From positions 186,001 through 250,000 of the forward strand of contig DIBV01000006.1 in assembly GCA_002415085.1 (NCBI GenBank): DNA of 64,000 nucleotides, written 5' to 3'. Below are positions 18,476 to 26,757 of the stretch, in pieces. This DNA is from Arsukibacterium sp. UBA5043 (lineage in GTDB: Bacteria; Pseudomonadota; Gammaproteobacteria; Enterobacterales; Alteromonadaceae). How positions within the stretch are numbered: the stretch's first letter is position 1; every line of letters begins with the position of its first letter. The notes under the pieces were generated by a model. The model did not search any database. It was not told the origin of the DNA and saw only the letters and a program-made list of their open reading frames with translations. The position numbers and the translations under genes are program-made.

Positions 18476-20731
18476 ATGAAATTTCGTTTTCCGGTTATCG
18501 TTATCGATGAAGATTTCCGTTCAGAAAATATTTCCGGCTCAGGCATTCGAGATCTGGCTCAGGCCATCGGCAGCCATGGTTTTGAGGTAGTCGGCTATAC
18601 CAGCTATGTCGATCTAACGGCGTTTGCCCAGCAAGCGAGCCGTGCCTCGTGCTTTATTTTATCTATCGACGATGAAGAGTTTGGCAGCGGCAGTGATGCT
18701 GATGTTAATACTGCGCTGACGGAGCTCAGAGCCTTTGTTAAAGAAGTGCGTAAGCGTAACGCCGATATACCGATATTTTTATACGGTGAAACCCGCACCA
18801 GCCGCCATATTCCAAACGATGTGCTGCGCGAGCTGCATGGTTTTATTCATATGTTTGAAGATACGCCGGAGTTTGTGGCGCGGCATATTATCCGCGAAGC
18901 GCAAAAGTATTTAGATGCGTTAGCGCCGCCGTTTTTTAATGCGCTAATGGATTATGCCTCAGATGGTTCTTACTCGTGGCACTGTCCTGGCCACTCCGGC
19001 GGCGTGGCGTTTTTAAAAAGCCCGGTTGGCCAGATGTTTCACCAGTTTTTTGGCGAAAACATGTTACGGGCCGATGTCTGCAACTCGGTAGATGAGTTAG
19101 GCCAGTTGCTGGACCATACCGGACCGGTGGCGCAGAGTGAGCAGAATGCTGCCCGCATTTTTAACGCCGATCATTTGTTTTTCGTCACTAATGGTACCTC
19201 TACTTCTAATAAAATGGTCTGGCACTCCGTAGTCGCCCCTGGTGACATCGTGGTGGTAGACCGTAACTGTCATAAATCAATTTTACATTCGATTATTATG
19301 ACCGGCGCTATTCCAGTATTTTTAATGCCAACCCGCAACCATTACGGCATTATCGGCCCTATTCCCAAGAGTGAGTTTTCAGCCGAAGCCATTGCTAAGA
19401 AAATCGAGGCTAACCCCTTCGCCCGCAATGCCAAGAACAAAAAACCGCGTATTTTAACGATTACCCAAAGCACCTACGACGGTATTTTGTACAACGTTGA
19501 AGAGATTAAGCAGGAATTGGGCTCTACCATCGATACCCTGCATTTTGACGAAGCCTGGTTACCGCATGCCAGCTTCCACGATTTTTATAAGAATATGCAC
19601 GCTATCGGTAAAGATCGGCCGCGCTCAGATGAAACCCTGGTATTCGCTACTCAGTCTACTCATAAGTTATTGGCGGGCCTGTCTCAAGCATCACAAATTC
19701 TGGTGCAAAATGCCACTAACCGAAATTTAGATACCCATCGCTTTAACGAATCGTACTTAATGCACAGCTCTACCAGTCCGCAGTATGCCATTATCGCCAG
19801 TTGCGATGTGGCCGCCGCAATGATGGAAGCCCCGGGCGGCACCTCGCTGGTAGAAGAAAGCTTGCTGGAAGCGATTGATTTTCGCCGGGCCATGCGCAAA
19901 GTCGATGCCGAATTTGGTGATGATGACTGGTGGTTTAAAGTATGGGGCCCAGAACATTTGCCGGAAGAGGGCATAGGTGAGCGCGATAACTGGGTATTAC
20001 ACGCCACCGACAGCTGGCATGGTTTCGGACCGATTGAGTCGGGCTTTAATATCCTGGATCCAATTAAAGCCACCATTATCACCCCGGGCCTGAATATGCT
20101 GGGCCAGTTTGACGAGCAGGGCATTCCGGCCACTATCGTCAGCAAGTACCTGGCTGAGCACGGTATTATAATTGAGAAAACCGGCCTGTACTCGTTCTTT
20201 ATTATGTTTACCATCGGCATTACCAAAGGCCGCTGGAATTCAATGGTAACTGAATTGCAGCAGTTTAAAGACGATTACGATCAAAACCTGCCAATGTGGC
20301 GGGCGATGCCGGAATTTGTGGCAAAGCATCCACGGTATGAAAAGGTAGGTTTGCGCGATTTATGTCAGCAAATTCACAATATCTATCGTCAGTTTGATGT
20401 CGCAAAAGTCACTACTGAGATGTACCTGTCGACCATTGAAACGGCCATGACCCCGGCTGATGCCTGGGCCAAAATGGCCCATCGCGAGATTGAGCGTGTC
20501 TCTATCGATGATATCGCTGGCCGGGTAACCGCCATGTTAGTGACCCCTTACCCACCCGGTATTCCGCTGATGGTGCCAGGCGAGCGCTTTAATGCCACCA
20601 TAATTAACTATCTTAAATTCACCCGAGCCTTTAACGGCCAGTTCCCGGGTTTTGAAACCGATGTCCATGGTCTGGTGCGGGAAACGGTAGCAGGTGAAAG
20701 CCAGTATTTTATTGATGTCGTAAAAGAGTAA
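18476..20731 (+). CDS. Orn/Lys/Arg decarboxylase, AdiA-like
   Basis: This is a fold-type I PLP decarboxylase of 751 residues, close to AdiA (756) and Ldc proteins. Order: N-terminal receiver-like wing domain (1-135), PLP domain (HCPGHSGGVAF, VVDRNCHKSILHS, HFDEAWLPHA), PLP lysine near Lys397 in STHKLLAGLSQAS, and C-terminal domain with PPGIPLMVPGER. The product is a polyamine or diamine (agmatine, cadaverine or putrescine); the substrate cannot be read from sequence alone. Similarity by eye is best to arginine decarboxylase AdiA. No antiporter gene adjoins it, unlike classical acid-resistance pairs, so a biosynthetic or general role is possible. It lies 16 bp after der. Confidence 0.9.
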   Translation: MKFRFPVIVIDEDFRSENISGSGIRDLAQAIGSHGFEVVGYTSYVDLTAFAQQASRASCFILSIDDEEFGSGSDADVNTALTELRAFVKEVRKRNADIPIFLYGETRTSRHIPNDVLRELHGFIHMFEDTPEFVARHIIREAQKYLDALAPPFFNALMDYASDGSYSWHCPGHSGGVAFLKSPVGQMFHQFFGENMLRADVCNSVDELGQLLDHTGPVAQSEQNAARIFNADHLFFVTNGTSTSNKMVWHSVVAPGDIVVVDRNCHKSILHSIIMTGAIPVFLMPTRNHYGIIGPIPKSEFSAEAIAKKIEANPFARNAKNKKPRILTITQSTYDGILYNVEEIKQELGSTIDTLHFDEAWLPHASFHDFYKNMHAIGKDRPRSDETLVFATQSTHKLLAGLSQASQILVQNATNRNLDTHRFNESYLMHSSTSPQYAIIASCDVAAAMMEAPGGTSLVEESLLEAIDFRRAMRKVDAEFGDDDWWFKVWGPEHLPEEGIGERDNWVLHATDSWHGFGPIESGFNILDPIKATIITPGLNMLGQFDEQGIPATIVSKYLAEHGIIIEKTGLYSFFIMFTIGITKGRWNSMVTELQQFKDDYDQNLPMWRAMPEFVAKHPRYEKVGLRDLCQQIHNIYRQFDVAKVTTEMYLSTIETAMTPADAWAKMAHREIERVSIDDIAGRVTAMLVTPYPPGIPLMVPGERFNATIINYLKFTRAFNGQFPGFETDVHGLVRETVAGESQYFIDVVKE

Positions 20732-20744
20732 AACCCTGCTGTGG

Positions 20745-20784
20745 TTGCCACCGGTAAAAAGTGCTGTCCGGTGGCAATATTTTC
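20745..20784 (+). terminator. Hairpin terminator after the decarboxylase
   Basis: A perfect 10-bp stem TTGCCACCGG (20745-20754) with CCGGTGGCAA (20768-20777) closes a 13-base loop. TATTTTC follows. The rest of the 285-bp gap up to 21016 shows no ORF or clear promoter. Confidence 0.75.
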
Positions 20785-21016
20785 ATAATAGCCAGCACTG
20801 TAGCTGGCTGTCCCCTGTCTTTTAAAGATTGCTTGCCCTGTCTGCCCCCTAGCACAGTGCCCGCTGCTGATTTGTGCTGCTGTTATCCCTGCTAGCCGGC
20901 ATTTATCCCAGCTGCTGTCTGGTATGTTTTTTGAATGATGTATTGCTATGTTCTGAGCAGTACTCCGGATTAACACGAACCCACATTCTGACTGATGCCA
21001 GCAGGAGGTCAGCGAT

Positions 21017-22015
21017 ATGACAGCAAAGCTTGAGCAAGGCGATATTTATTTCTTTTACCGCAGTAAAATAGACCGCGAACAGGTTAACAGCATTGATGAT
21101 GTGCAGCGTTTTTATCTGGTTATGGTGCCGGACAACGACGATAAAGCACGGTTGTTTATCGTTGGCAAAAAACGTTTGCCAGAAATCAGCGACGGTTCGT
21201 CCAAATCGACGCAACGGGAGTGGATGCTGAATTACCTGACGACCAGCCCCCAGCAGATTGGCAAGGAGCTTGGGCCGCTAAAATATCAAACATCAACCGA
21301 AGGCGAGCGCGAGCAGGGTGAAGCTATTCCGGCAGGAGCCGGCCGCTATCTGATGTTTGAGCACAGCGACAGCACCAGGCTGGCTTACCGCTTACATCAG
21401 CCTGATAAACCGGGCAAGGCGCAAAAAGAACTTGGTATATTAGCTGAAGCCAGTTTTGTTATTTCAGTCCGAAACCCCGAAATAGATGCGCCCGGTTTTC
21501 CTGATGAAAAACCGGATTATCCGCAGCAACTTAAAGATAAATTTGCCGACAAACGCTGGATTGATATCAGCGACACCAAACTGCTGGATTACGAAAATGC
21601 CCAGTTGCTATTAATTGGTGCTCACGATGATTTAGCGGATACTGAAGCAGACATTAGCAGCGGTAAGCCAGAGCTTTTTGATACCCTGGGTTTAAAGCCA
21701 AAAAACTGGCCTGCTGCAGCAATTGAGGACGGCAAATTTACCACGCCTGACTTTAAGCTCGACAGCAAGTCGCCGCGGGGCGATCCAACCAAAGGCGGCC
21801 GACATGGTGGTAAGGCAGCATTAAAAAGTGCCTCGGCTGCAGGTATTGCTCAGGCGCTGAAGGGTATCGATTTCCCCCGTGACCGGGATCAGGTAGTTAA
21901 GTTTGCTGAAAAACACGATGTCAGGGCTGAGATTATCGACGTATTGCAAGAGCTGCCTGAACGCAAATTCCACACCATGGCAGATCTGGAAAAAGCCGTA
22001 GGGGAGGTAAGATAA
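21017..22015 (+). CDS. Unknown protein with C-terminal DUF2795-type module
   Basis: The 332-residue soluble protein has no signal peptide. Residues 1-235 form a domain I do not recognise (QGDIYFFYRSKIDREQV, RFYLVMVPDNDDKARLF, GAGRYLMFEHSDSTRLAYR). A Gly/Lys-rich linker near 258-268 joins it to a DUF2795-type helical module at 272-331 (AQALKGIDFPRDRDQVVKF). That module recurs twice in the next gene. Start ATG 21017 has AGGAGG at 21003-21008. The next gene's ATG overlaps the stop codon (TAATG), so both are made together. Function unknown. Confidence 0.85.
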   Translation: MTAKLEQGDIYFFYRSKIDREQVNSIDDVQRFYLVMVPDNDDKARLFIVGKKRLPEISDGSSKSTQREWMLNYLTTSPQQIGKELGPLKYQTSTEGEREQGEAIPAGAGRYLMFEHSDSTRLAYRLHQPDKPGKAQKELGILAEASFVISVRNPEIDAPGFPDEKPDYPQQLKDKFADKRWIDISDTKLLDYENAQLLLIGAHDDLADTEADISSGKPELFDTLGLKPKNWPAAAIEDGKFTTPDFKLDSKSPRGDPTKGGRHGGKAALKSASAAGIAQALKGIDFPRDRDQVVKFAEKHDVRAEIIDVLQELPERKFHTMADLEKAVGEVR

Positions 22016-22539
22016 TGGCCCAGTTTTGCTGCGACATTTGCGATGCAACCTTTGAACAGAAATCACGGTTAGAGCGCCACATGCTGACGTCTCATCCGCA
22101 GCCGGCGATATCTGCAGCCGATATTGAAAAAGCGCTGAAAGGCATTGAGTTTCCGGCGTCCCGCGACGAGCTGGTAGCGACAATTGACGATAGTAAACAG
22201 CGTGCCGGAGAAATTACTGACATCTTAAAGCAGCTTCCCGACCAGCAATACCGTGACGCCGCTGAAATCAGCCGGGCCTTTGGCGGCCTGCGCAGCCATC
22301 AGAATAAACCGGATGATCAGCCCAGTAAAAAAGGCGGCGCCCGGGCAATGGAAGTAGCCTCCGCAGCGAATATTGCCAGCGTATTTGCCGGCATGGATTT
22401 TCCTGCCAGTGGCGATGAGCTTAAAGCATTCGCCCGCGATAACGCCGATGCTGAGCAAGTAGAGATTATTGAGCAGTTCAGCGATAAGACCTATCACAGC
22501 ATGAAAGACGTAGCCAAAGAGTTTGGCCGGCTGTCGTAA
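22015..22539 (+). CDS. C2H2-type finger plus two DUF2795-type modules
   Basis: The 174-residue protein opens with Cys6-x2-Cys9-x12-His22-x4-His27, the exact spacing of a classical C2H2 zinc finger with the Phe and Leu core residues in place (CDICDATFEQKSRLERHM). Two DUF2795-type helical modules follow, at about 33-92 (EKALKGIEFPASRDEL) and 114-174 (ASVFAGMDFPASGDEL). The finger suggests nucleic acid or protein binding. The ATG overlaps the preceding stop by one base, with GGGGAGG at 22001-22007. Function unknown. Confidence 0.85.
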   Translation: MAQFCCDICDATFEQKSRLERHMLTSHPQPAISAADIEKALKGIEFPASRDELVATIDDSKQRAGEITDILKQLPDQQYRDAAEISRAFGGLRSHQNKPDDQPSKKGGARAMEVASAANIASVFAGMDFPASGDELKAFARDNADAEQVEIIEQFSDKTYHSMKDVAKEFGRLS

Positions 22540-22564
22540 CGCTGCTGTCTGAAGCCAGTAACAG

Positions 22565-23266
22565 TTAGCTGCTCTTTTTAAATGGAACAACAACGGCGTT
22601 AATGTTCTCGTTATAAGACAATACGGCTCTGAGTTGCTGCTGACCATTTGTTATCAACGAGCGATACACCACCGTTTTTATTTTATGGTCAGAATTAATG
22701 GCGGCATTAACCACTGACTCTATATTATCGTTATTGCCGGCATCAATTGACAGCAAACAGATATAGCTACCGCAGTTAATGTTATTAATTACAGCGCCAT
22801 TGGTAAGGGTATCGGCCAGTTGCTGCTCAATATCTAACCGTACCTGAATGTCATCGTCATGCTGGTAGCTTAAGTAACCGGCCAGCTCGTCGAAGCTGTC
22901 GTCTAACAGCATGGTATCCACGTCATCAACACTAAAATAGCCATTAGCCAGGGCATCAGCTGCAAAGCGCTGGGCTTGCTGGTTTAAGTCTGGTTTAACA
23001 TTCGTGGTTGCCGGTTCGTGATTGCTGCTTTTAGCACTTTTGGGGGCGGCCGCATTATCGACCGCTAATTGCTGAGTAGCATACTGCGCTTTCTTATCAG
23101 CGCTTTGCAGCACAGCAGATTGATGCTGAGCTGGCACGCTGCTGGTGCTGGCAATACTGATGCTGTCTGTCGAGGCGACGCTATCAGCTATGTGCTGTCC
23201 ACTGAGACTAAAATAACCGATAGCAGCAACACCTGCGACTATCATTAACCCTGGCCAATATTTCAT
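22565..23266 (-). CDS. Unknown anchored or secreted protein
   Basis: The 233-residue product starts MKYWPGLMIVAGVAAIGYFS, a single N-terminal membrane helix or uncleaved signal. A Ser/Ala-rich linker to about residue 90 and a folded domain follow. Two cysteines in NCGSYICLLSI may form a disulfide. AAGGA lies upstream of the ATG. It converges on the DUF2795 pair with a 25-bp gap and is divergent from the DUF2157-like gene. I do not recognise the family. Confidence 0.72.
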   Translation of the reverse strand: MKYWPGLMIVAGVAAIGYFSLSGQHIADSVASTDSISIASTSSVPAQHQSAVLQSADKKAQYATQQLAVDNAAAPKSAKSSNHEPATTNVKPDLNQQAQRFAADALANGYFSVDDVDTMLLDDSFDELAGYLSYQHDDDIQVRLDIEQQLADTLTNGAVINNINCGSYICLLSIDAGNNDNIESVVNAAINSDHKIKTVVYRSLITNGQQQLRAVLSYNENINAVVVPFKKSS

Positions 23267-23497
23267 ACTATGTCCTTATATTTTTGTTAAAAAAATGATT
23301 TTTAGATTTGCACGCAAAATGAAATGAGTCAATAAAAGCGGGACAAAATATGGTGGCGTATGTTTAACGAAGCTCTATGGGAATAAGGTATTCACTAAAA
23401 TACCGTTAGGTGTCGGCAGGGCTTGTTTTATCAGAGTAAGCTAGCTGATTCCGGTTTTGTTAGTTTTCAGGTACTCTGTTGTTCAGGCGCTGACAGC

Positions 23498-24613
23498 ATG
23501 GATGAAACGAAGCACGTGACCACAACTCCCCCCTTTAATAAAACCCAGGCGCAGGCCAGAGCTGATCAGGTACTGGCTTTTCGGGCTGAACAGCAGATAT
23601 TAGCCGAACAAGGCGTGTTGATACTGGCTGATGATAAAGCAGCTCAGGTTCGCGATTATCACGATGCCTTGTTGCAGCAAATGCAGCAGGAGCAGAATGT
23701 CGACTTAAACGCCCAGGCCCGCCATTTGTCGCTGGGTATGCAAATTGTCTCATTTCTAGGTGCAACAGCACTTGCCGCCAGTTTATTCTTTCTGTTTTTC
23801 CAGTATTGGGGTTATTTCTCTACCGTTAGCCAGGTTGCGCTACTCATTGCTGCGCCGCTATTAAGTCTGGCACTGGCGGTATGGCTGCAGCGGGTTGATG
23901 GCTCGGGCTACTATGCAAAACTGGCTGCATTAGTGTCTTTTACTGCCTGGGTGCTGAATATTATTATGCTGGGCAGCATTTTTAATATCACGCCATCAGC
24001 CAACGCTTTTGCTGTTTTTGCATTATATGGCTTTGTGCTGGCGTATCTGCTGCACGTACGCTTACTGTTGGCGGCAGCGATACTCTGCAGTTTTATGTTT
24101 ATTGGCGCGCAGTTTGGCAGCTGGATGGGCAGTTACTTGGTGCATGCCGGCGAGTATCCTGAGCATTTTCTATTAGCCAGTGCAATGTTCTTTGCAGTGC
24201 CAATGGCGTTTAAACAGCAACGGTTTGATGGCTTTGCCAATATTTATCAGACACTGTCTGCCGTGGTGTTTTTTATAGCGGTGTTGGTGTTAGCCAATTG
24301 GGGCAGGGTCAGTTATTTGCCCTGGTCAGCCGATTTAGTAGAAGGGGTGTATCAGGTAGTGGGGTTTGTTGCCAGCGCGCTATTGCTATTGTTCGGCATT
24401 CGCACACATGCAGCGAAACTGATGCTAACCGGCAACGTGTTCTTTGCCCTGTTTTTGTATACCAAGTTTTTTGACTGGTGGTGGGACTGGCTACCAAAAT
24501 ATTTGTTCTTTCTACTGGTCGGCCTTACTGCAATTCTGGCATTGACGATGTTTAATCGTTTTCGCGCTATCCAGCACGCCCGGATGCAATCAGCCGGAGG
24601 CGAACATGTCTGA
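23498..24613 (+). CDS. DUF2157-like polytopic membrane protein
   Basis: The 371-residue protein has a soluble, charged N-terminal region of about 70 residues and then about ten membrane helices (for example GATALAASLFFLFFQYWGYF and LLVGLTAILALTMF). This layout fits the DUF2157 family of predicted membrane proteins, whose function is unknown. I chose ATG 23498; an in-frame TTG at 23423 would add 25 unlikely residues, and neither has a strong ribosome site. The next gene overlaps its end by 8 bp, so they are a unit. Confidence 0.75.
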   Translation: MDETKHVTTTPPFNKTQAQARADQVLAFRAEQQILAEQGVLILADDKAAQVRDYHDALLQQMQQEQNVDLNAQARHLSLGMQIVSFLGATALAASLFFLFFQYWGYFSTVSQVALLIAAPLLSLALAVWLQRVDGSGYYAKLAALVSFTAWVLNIIMLGSIFNITPSANAFAVFALYGFVLAYLLHVRLLLAAAILCSFMFIGAQFGSWMGSYLVHAGEYPEHFLLASAMFFAVPMAFKQQRFDGFANIYQTLSAVVFFIAVLVLANWGRVSYLPWSADLVEGVYQVVGFVASALLLLFGIRTHAAKLMLTGNVFFALFLYTKFFDWWWDWLPKYLFFLLVGLTAILALTMFNRFRAIQHARMQSAGGEHV

Positions 24614-25439
24614 ACAGCATTTCAAAAAACTGCTCTGGTTAGCGGTTGCCACTGTAGTGACAGTTAATGGCGTAATACTTAGTAAAGTGTTTATCAATCG
24701 CAGCGCTATCTTAGCTGAATTCCCTTTAACCGAGCGGGAATTACGCTTGCCTAATCAATATGGCTTTGCCGGCGAGAATTCCGGTAAACGTATCGGTCTG
24801 AAGTGGACCACGCCTAACCCTGAGCCGATTAGTGACGAATGGCAATACCAATACCGGCATACTAACCGCGCTATTTCTGTTAGTGATGCGCACTTTGCCA
24901 GTTTTCAGTTTCAGCCATGCCTGCCCGGGCGCTACCGGCGGCAGCAGCAAAGGGCCTGGGTGTTACTGGAGTTTAACGGTCAAAGTTATGCTGATTACCT
25001 TACAGAAGCTGAGCAATATTACGCATTAGTGCAGCAGGTAAATCCGGAACTCACAGCCGAAGTGCAACTGGAACAGCAGCAGCGGGCGGCAGATTTGCTG
25101 CAAACCGCAAATGAACGGGCGACCCGTTTATATGTTATCGATGCTGCCGCCACTGCTGAGCTATTACAACCTGTATTAGCTGCCAGGCCAACCACGGCTG
25201 ATAGCAGGCTGGTAATTGTGCCCGCTGAAATCCAGGCCAGTTATCATCGCTGTGCTAAAACCGAACAGACAAAACTTAATGAAATTATCGTCACCAGGCT
25301 GGCAGTGCAGTCGCTTTATGTGCCCAAGCGGCTGGCTGCGGCCCTACCGCAAAATAATGACAAGATCGAAAGTGAGCCTTTGCGGGCGATTATTTACTAC
25401 GGAAAATTGCATGAGCCATGGATTAGCAATCTGGAGTAA
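24606..25439 (+). CDS. DUF4824-like membrane-anchored protein
   Basis: The 277-residue protein has one N-terminal membrane helix (LLWLAVATVVTVNGVILSKVF), then a conserved-looking FPLTERELRLP segment and a large extracytoplasmic domain. The segment and the pairing with a DUF2157-type partner suggest DUF4824 or a related family; this is from memory and unproven. The ATG overlaps the upstream gene by 8 bp. Its 3' end overlaps the convergent ChaC-like gene by 17 bp. Confidence 0.7.
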   Translation: MSEQHFKKLLWLAVATVVTVNGVILSKVFINRSAILAEFPLTERELRLPNQYGFAGENSGKRIGLKWTTPNPEPISDEWQYQYRHTNRAISVSDAHFASFQFQPCLPGRYRRQQQRAWVLLEFNGQSYADYLTEAEQYYALVQQVNPELTAEVQLEQQQRAADLLQTANERATRLYVIDAAATAELLQPVLAARPTTADSRLVIVPAEIQASYHRCAKTEQTKLNEIIVTRLAVQSLYVPKRLAAALPQNNDKIESEPLRAIIYYGKLHEPWISNLE

Positions 25440-26010
25440 GTTTTAACAACTCGCGCTCAATGGCAAACACATGCTCATCCTGCTCTTTCATGTCCCGCAG
25501 GGCTTGCGCCAGTTGTAGTAAGTATTCGCTGTTGGGGCCACTTGGCCCCTCACTTTTCGCTATATGGGCGGCAATCGCCTGATCACTGGCGGGGCCAAGA
25601 TAGGCCTCGTTATCGGCGCTGGCTAAGTACACTAAGCCTGAGGTATTAGCGTCACTCTGGTCAGGCGCATCCAGCCAGTGCAAGTCAGTAAACACCCGCA
25701 AATAACCGTTTTTCTCGCGGTGGTCTAAATGCTCAAAAGTATCAGGCGTTACCTGATACGCCATACCGGCACAGCGCTCGCCTGGTGCTTCTATCAGCGT
25801 TAATACCCGGCCAGGAGCTTGCGGCGTGCCGCGATGATCATGCGAGCCCTGCCAAAAGCGGCGCTGCCAGTTATAAATACAGGCTGGTTTGCGTTGCAGG
25901 AAAGGGAAGTCAGCTTTGTAAATGAGTGATCCATAACCAAACAACCAGACTGAGTCGAGGTGATCCAGCGGCTGGCGCTGTTTATTAAGGGCAGCGGTGT
26001 CGTGTGACAT
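25423..26010 (-). CDS. ChaC-like gamma-glutamylcyclotransferase
   Basis: ChaC-type enzymes cleave glutathione to 5-oxoproline and Cys-Gly in the cytoplasm. The 195-residue protein has the family signature VWLFGYGSLIYKADFPF near residue 21, the RRFWQGSHDHRGTP segment, and the catalytic glutamate in DHREKNGYLR near residue 99. GGAGAA precedes the ATG at 26010. The last 17 bp overlap the oppositely oriented DUF4824-like gene. Substrate assignment rests on the family. Confidence 0.88.
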   Translation of the reverse strand: MSHDTAALNKQRQPLDHLDSVWLFGYGSLIYKADFPFLQRKPACIYNWQRRFWQGSHDHRGTPQAPGRVLTLIEAPGERCAGMAYQVTPDTFEHLDHREKNGYLRVFTDLHWLDAPDQSDANTSGLVYLASADNEAYLGPASDQAIAAHIAKSEGPSGPNSEYLLQLAQALRDMKEQDEHVFAIERELLKLTPDC

Positions 26011-26034
26011 GTTTCTCCACTTAGTAAGCTGAGG

Positions 26035-26670
26035 TTAGTTGGCAAATGTTTCATGTTGAAAGTCAGGACAGGCGTCGACAGGTTCAGGATCGAGTACCTG
26101 TGACCGGCTATCCGCCAGCCAGCAGTCGTCGAAAATCGAACAATAGCAAAAGGTAATTGCGGTTTGTGGATTACCAACAGCAGCTTGAAATTTTCTGGCT
26201 AAAGCAGGCTCGGCAACCGATAGCAAATCAATTTTCCGACCAGGGCTGAGCACACGGTTGCTGATGGTATTCCGGCCGACGTTTTCATCAAAAGTGCCAC
26301 CAAGATACGTTACCACCTGAGCCCAGTCACGCATTGGTTTGCCATCGACCTCGACTTTCACCGCGCGAATAAGCGCCGGCCCCACACCGGTGTTAGTGAA
26401 AGTAAGGGTAAAGCTGGCATCCTGGCCAAAATCATAGTCTGCAATCGATATCTGGATAAAAGGCCAAACGGCTGCTGATGTTTGCTTGCGTATTGCTTCA
26501 GACTCAGTAAGAGCGGCATAAAGTGCCAAAACGGCAATAAATATGCCTACAACAGATAAAATCGTTTGCCAGAAAGACAAACGAATAAAAATTTTTTCAC
26601 TTGCAGAAGGTATTTGCGCAGGTTCAGTATCTGAAAGATAGTTATGAGATTCTGCATGCTGTTCAGGCAT
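26035..26670 (-). CDS. Unknown single-span membrane protein
   Basis: The 211-residue product has a polar N-terminus and one membrane helix near residues 32-57 (TILSVVGIFIAVLALYAAL). An extracytoplasmic domain follows with the immunoglobulin-like phrase FTLTFTNTGVGPALIRAVKV and four cysteines near the C-terminus. ATG 26670 is chosen over 26685 because a GAGGG lies 8 bases upstream of it. It is 24 bp upstream of the chaC-like gene on the same strand. No family recognised. Confidence 0.7.
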   Translation of the reverse strand: MPEQHAESHNYLSDTEPAQIPSASEKIFIRLSFWQTILSVVGIFIAVLALYAALTESEAIRKQTSAAVWPFIQISIADYDFGQDASFTLTFTNTGVGPALIRAVKVEVDGKPMRDWAQVVTYLGGTFDENVGRNTISNRVLSPGRKIDLLSVAEPALARKFQAAVGNPQTAITFCYCSIFDDCWLADSRSQVLDPEPVDACPDFQHETFAN

Positions 26671-26757
26671 TGCTTTAACCCTCATTGTAAAACAAGCTGT
26701 GTTGAAATAATCTCGATGGTGATTAAGCTTAGCCTGAGTCAGCCCAGATGACTAACC

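Follow-up and report, generated by a model that had tools for sequence, protein, structure and literature searches.

A gene pair with three DUF2795 modules and a classically spaced C2H2 motif is shared by Arsukibacterium sp. UBA5043 and halomonads

The window, a 64,000-nt stretch of the genome of Arsukibacterium sp. UBA5043, carries at positions 21017–22539 two genes on the + strand, here designated A and B, that together encode three DUF2795 modules and one C2H2 finger; open reading frames and Pfam matches confirmed this layout, which the original prediction had read from the letters of the DNA. Gene A (positions 21017–22015, 332 aa) consists of an uncharacterised N-terminal region (residues 1–248, positions 21017–21760), a Lys/Gly-rich linker of the form KGG..GG (positions 21761–21826, boundaries set by eye, computed pI 10.5), and one DUF2795 module (residues 273–324, positions 21833–21988). 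Gene B (positions 22015–22539, 174 aa) starts with the finger (residues 4–27, positions 22024–22095), which is followed by DUF2795 module 1 (positions 22111–22272) and module 2 (positions 22360–22515). The genes overlap in the sequence TAATG (positions 22013–22017), the last A of the stop codon TAA of A being the first base of the ATG of B, as had been noted before; the corresponding overlap is TGATG in the halomonads and in G971, a genome of another class. Both proteins are acidic (computed pI 5.5 for A and 5.0 for B) and contain no computed membrane-type stretch, which makes a bulk nucleoid role unlikely; the low pI of B in particular weakens the earlier suggestion of a nucleoid protein.

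The assignment of the three modules to DUF2795 was borne out by PF11387 scores of 59.4 bits for the module of A (56.1 bits, E = 3e−15, in the scan of the whole protein), 47.8 bits for B module 1, and 42.2 bits for B module 2 against a cut-off of 25, and protein B as a whole matched the family with two modules (85.5 bits, E = 2e−24). At E ≤0.01, these were the only DUF2795 matches in the 3.88-Mb host genome. The modules also matched one another (hhalign E = 1e−20, 4e−17, and 9e−15), and profile comparison placed the module of A nearer to B module 1. A common Lys/Gly-rich linker, proposed earlier for the modules, does precede the module of A and B module 2, whereas B module 1 directly follows the finger. 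The proposal of internal duplication lost ground when 38 pair modules (16 A, 10 B1, and 12 B2, a subset of those available) were compared with 10 free-standing modules in one tree: the modules formed one clade per position (support 0.77 for A, 0.91 for B1, and 0.98 for B2) with the free-standing modules interleaved, in a tree that is short and weakly resolved, modules of 60 residues being poorly resolved in general. The three-module layout is common to the window, halomonad, and other-class copies, and because the clade of each module position includes the other-class copy, the layout appears to be old. In exceeding the Pfam cut-off, the modules resemble other DUF2795 proteins, but the setting differs: the ten free-standing relatives examined are short one-module ORFs, whereas in the pair one module comes after an uncharacterised stretch of 248 aa and two come after a zinc finger. 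The small free-standing DUF2795 genes of halomonads (L076–L080, L019, L025, and L026) encode products with MTRGLGG before the module and constitute a separate conserved group. In the open-licence literature searched, no role for DUF2795 was found; the two papers naming it are proteome studies, and none contains the accession PF11387.

Pfam, NCBIfam, PADLOC, PHROGs, and PDB sequences yielded nothing significant for the N-terminal region of A (residues 1–248). Its top Pfam score was that of DUF3105 (E = 0.03, 14.9 bits against a cut-off of 25); the weak DUF3105 and T2SSL scores were dropped. PDB entry 4mkm was also rejected, its E-value of 0.0013 with seven sequences rising to 0.075 with 22 and the match consisting of weak repeated stretches only, as was an Aeromonas match from the plasmid collection (E = 2), which was taken as chance.

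The finger of B shows the textbook spacing that had been predicted, C-X2-C-X12-H-X4-H, the classical C2H2 motif being C-X2-C-X12-H-X3-5-H. Its score against zf-C2H2 (PF00096, 23.6 bits, E = 6e−5) is a near miss, narrowly below the cut-off of 25.2, and we claim a classical C2H2 likeness by motif only. When 18 B proteins were aligned (the window copy, 16 whole halomonad copies, and one 111-aa halomonad copy), the four candidate zinc ligands and F13 proved invariant; in the B protein of G971, the four ligands are kept and the letters between F13 and H22 deviate. The finger thus resembles Krueppel-type C2H2 fingers in spacing, invariant ligands, and F13, but differs from them in standing alone at the N terminus of an acidic protein from bacteria and in scoring just below the PF00096 cut-off. 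With the Ros/MucR regulators, it has in common that a bacterial protein carries a single C2H2-type finger; however, passages of PMC5745721 describe Ros87 as a 58-residue domain of beta-beta-beta-alpha-alpha topology, and B had no match to the Ros/MucR family in a Pfam scan up to E = 10. A functional finger in B would offer a simple case of bacteria using a classical C2H2 finger outside the Ros/MucR family.

The two genes occur together in the salt-loving halomonads. Within a draw of 250 genomes from the family of Vreelandella rituensis (G147, locus L003), taken as Halomonadaceae, A was present in 22, whole in 21 and as a 37-residue remnant in one. In 16 of the 21 whole-A genomes, B was whole (169–175 aa), directly followed A, and had the same overlap, in support of the expected co-conservation; in the others it was shortened to 111 or 75 aa (one genome each), decayed (one genome), or gone (two genomes). 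In the latter two (L034 and L032), B is missing beyond its first codons, within which the junction lies, and the overlap with A is retained. A B-profile search of the same 250 genomes, in some of which first-look candidates were scored in part, matched 26, 8 of them by DUF2795 modules alone and 18 with the finger part, and all 18 of these were A-positive. B is thus tied to A, and A can outlive B; loss, truncation, or decay of B in 5 of 21 genomes implies that B is not needed for keeping A. An operon with overlapping genes, in which, across these 250 genomes, the finger part of B never occurs without A and A does occur without whole B, would also suit a toxin–antitoxin-like pair in which B does harm and A protects, but plain accessory-gene loss yields the same pattern, and the family-search matches of A and B included no toxin family. 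Moreover, we know of no toxin–antitoxin pair with sizes and domains like those of A and B, and this also tells against a toxin–antitoxin function, which we regard as very unlikely.

A peptide-pattern scan of genome contigs with A, which reaches near relatives only, yielded six loci from halomonad genera, L003 among them, with A 58–61% identical over its full length. Neither A nor B was found in the other 146 host relatives examined, which include at least 20 from the same genus, and the A domain was not found in 368 other genomes drawn from the host's class. Among 398 genomes drawn from the phylum, in some of which first-look candidates were likewise scored in part, the A domain was detected in the host, in G1042 of the same class (with coordinates and a score the same as those of the halomonad G550), and, outside that class, in G971, where A is 47% and B 51% identical to the window proteins. 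Five weak phylum matches to the A domain were judged to be chance: four at E ~0.07 and one in G1011 (E = 2.5e−4), which lay antisense to a long ORF resembling the helicase Mfd by eye and was dropped. All of these genome samples are draws, not censuses, and beyond the phylum the search covered plasmid, phage, and viral records and the pattern scan of genome contigs; the observed spread of the A domain is a lower bound. Median dN/dS came to 0.17 (N-terminal region of A), 0.22 (A module), 0.10 (finger), 0.19 (B module 1), and 0.24 (B module 2); these are crude estimates from 23 A and 18 B sequences (pairs with 0.1 < dS < 1.5), many dS values being high. A and B are real, constrained genes and form a conserved unit. 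Among the papers listed by literature searches of a few terms each, none dealt with the pair, and its novelty is relative to the families and papers that the searches covered.

In the host, the pair is surrounded by core genes: ispG, hisS, bamB, and a two-domain GTPase gene (Der by eye) lie to the left, with an Orn/Lys/Arg decarboxylase gene immediately before A, and chaC, xseA, and guaB lie to the right. Between the GTPase gene and xseA–guaB (window positions 18476–26685), the order is decarboxylase, the pair, a 233-aa protein, DUF2157, DUF4824, ChaC, and an ORF of no family. The congener G010 matches the right side from approximately position 22590 to 26024; its left genes differ and the pair is absent. 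In the halomonads, gene clusters picked by hand showed that the contexts of the pair differ, with one context in six loci, one in four, and the rest in smaller groups or single. No ORF cluster outside the pair was common to more than 6 of 23 loci, and the partner gene is accordingly the only constant neighbour. Because the pair occurs in halomonads and in another class and is absent from the 146 host relatives, horizontal transfer is suggested, and since the halomonad contexts vary and the other congeners examined lack the pair, transfer into the host genome is the simplest reading. In G971 (L085:858-5061), the pair is flanked by a CBS-domain gene on one side and a gene of the erythromycin esterase family on the other, and a PHA synthase gene follows further on. 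Rfam gave nothing at the gathering score within the window, and scans near the pair were close to shuffled sequences for sigma-70 promoters (3 sites against a mean of 2.5) and gave one terminator site against a shuffle mean of 2.6.

Patchy distribution, apparent horizontal spread, and variable contexts are also what an anti-phage defence pair would show, as the original prediction had considered. This idea fared poorly: the host pair sits among core genes, and PADLOC, run on A, B, and eight neighbours, returned only a weak Csm2 match for B and a weak PbeC match for the exonuclease VII gene. The Csm2 match (E = 0.006, residues 73–154) was judged to be chance. Moreover, A had no match in phage or plasmid records at E = 1e−5, and neither A nor B had a match in viral contigs. 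At the same threshold, B gave two partial DUF2795 matches in plasmids; a Paraburkholderia plasmid match was rejected as a finger-plus-DUF2795 protein, since its translation lacked the finger. We consider a defence function highly improbable.

The upstream region of A offers another line of evidence. In 19 of 21 halomonad loci, the element TTtGCA-N13-TCTGCTA lies 75–139 bp upstream of A, close variants being allowed (TTTACA, TTTGCG, GTTGCA, and TTTGCTA); a twentieth locus (L100) has TTTGCT with a spacer one base longer, and in L110 (G711) no element was seen before A. The regular expression was written after the upstream regions had been viewed, so that its presence before A is by construction; independent of this design are its absence elsewhere in the loci, with no further match on either strand of 23 loci (720,162 strand bases), and four matches at phasin genes. 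These emerged when the exact core, TTGCA-N13-TCTGCTA, was searched in 22 genomes (the 21 A-positive halomonads, chosen for A, and the host): there were 18 matches against 5 for the reversed pattern, 14 before A and 4 before phasin genes. The phasin-side cores, in 4 of the 21 halomonads (G711, G556, G149, and G662), lie 83–124 bp before the ORF start on the same strand (the value of 124 was counted by hand). All four downstream ORFs pass the Pfam Phasin_2 cut-off and, judged by sequence and in two cases also by the gene that follows, seem to represent two phasin paralogues. It is most unlikely that chance would place four of four non-A matches at phasin genes. Two genomes only, G556 and G662, carry the exact core at both sites; in G149 the copy upstream of A differs by one letter, and in G711 the core stands before the phasin gene with no element seen before A. 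The element was not found upstream of A in the window or in G971, and the host genome had no exact-core match. Within the window, a degenerate look-alike (TTTGTG-N11-CCTGCTA, positions 20871–20894, + strand) deviates in letters and spacing and is probably not significant by itself.

Read as a promoter, the element has TTGCA as its −35 box, 17 bases of spacer, and an extended −10 box with TGC before TA. The C at −13 resembles that of sigma-S promoters, and we infer a putative stationary-phase (sigma-S-like) promoter. The phasin-gene copies contain extra TGCA repeats that are absent from the A copies, which suggests that the part common to both is probably a core promoter and not a PhaR site. 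In the halomonad phasin promoters (L120, L122, L135, and L136, near base 1500; the element is on the − strand in L122 and L136), repeats such as TTGCA.TGCACAA or TTGCA..GCACAA occur at −35 and TTGCA..GCA repeats after −10; these may be PhaR sites. PhaR controls phaP in Cupriavidus, and RpoS affects PHA metabolism with either sign in other bacteria, as given in the review PMC9049629. A putative control in common with part of the phasin genes is suggestive of a storage or stationary-phase state, and the occurrence of the element before phasin genes points to a regulon of that type and away from defence.

A highly conserved upstream element might also be an operator, and B might then be a transcription or nucleoid factor whose finger binds DNA, for example at its own promoter, and whose modules multimerise the protein. 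The classical spacing of the finger and the lowest dN/dS of all measured parts are in agreement with this. However, a lone finger rarely binds DNA specifically, B is acidic, and the letters between F13 and H22 deviate in G971; furthermore, where whole B is lacking (five halomonads), the element persists before A in four cases and is altered in the fifth. Such a regulator seems unlikely to us.

The same element raises the question of whether A and B act on PHA storage granules together with phasins, the finger tying granules to the nucleoid in the manner of PhaM, which according to PMC3556143 links PHB granules to the nucleoid in Ralstonia eutropha and so provides a precedent for combined granule and DNA binding. 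The likeness of the pair to phasins and to PhaM/PhaF lies in the promoter-like element that also precedes phasin genes in four halomonads, to which the G971 PHA synthase gene, located approximately 7.5 kb beyond B and equally oriented, adds weakly. The differences are as follows: neither A nor B contains a phasin domain in Pfam, both are acidic, and the host genome (99.96% complete) has no PhaC_N match, a domain that was matched in 24 of 147 host relatives, none of these 24 being in the host's genus. In addition, the synthase gene of G971 is outside the operon of the pair, with several genes between. The lack of a PhaC_N match in the host and of a phasin domain in A and B limits any direct PHA role, and a granule system of this kind is doubtful, and somewhat more so than a DNA-binding regulator.

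Considering the upstream element in common with some phasin genes, the limits on a direct PHA role, and two acidic proteins without a membrane-type stretch, we tentatively favour, at less than an even chance, a stress-phase protein assembly built via the DUF2795 modules. A stress role was among the possibilities raised originally; it gained some support from the element in common with phasin genes, within the halomonads, and the defence and nucleoid alternatives named beside it did not. In such an assembly, A and B would be soluble proteins made from a two-gene operon, spread by horizontal transfer, in a storage- or stress-type growth state. Through their homologous modules, A and B are assumed to self-assemble and to join each other; the core activity would lie in the N-terminal region of A, and the one finger of B would provide an accessory contact to nucleic acid or another protein. 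The finger may contact a protein, an RNA, or a DNA site. A bolder version of the stress-phase assembly, which we think quite improbable, is an unnamed two-protein body under phasin-type control whose DUF2795 scaffold would be anchored by the eukaryote-style C2H2 finger to the chromosome, to RNA, or to granule surfaces; if true, it would be a new bacterial storage- or stress-phase body, able to act even in PHA-free hosts. The pair gives DUF2795 a defined partner, a conserved operon, and an upstream element found at some phasin genes as well, which makes its role directly testable.

Immediately beyond B, the 233-aa protein is encoded on the − strand (positions 22565–23266) and has no Pfam match over the cut-off. 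Within the genus, 6 of 26 genomes carry it, including the host, with 61% identity in one relative and 24–29% in four.
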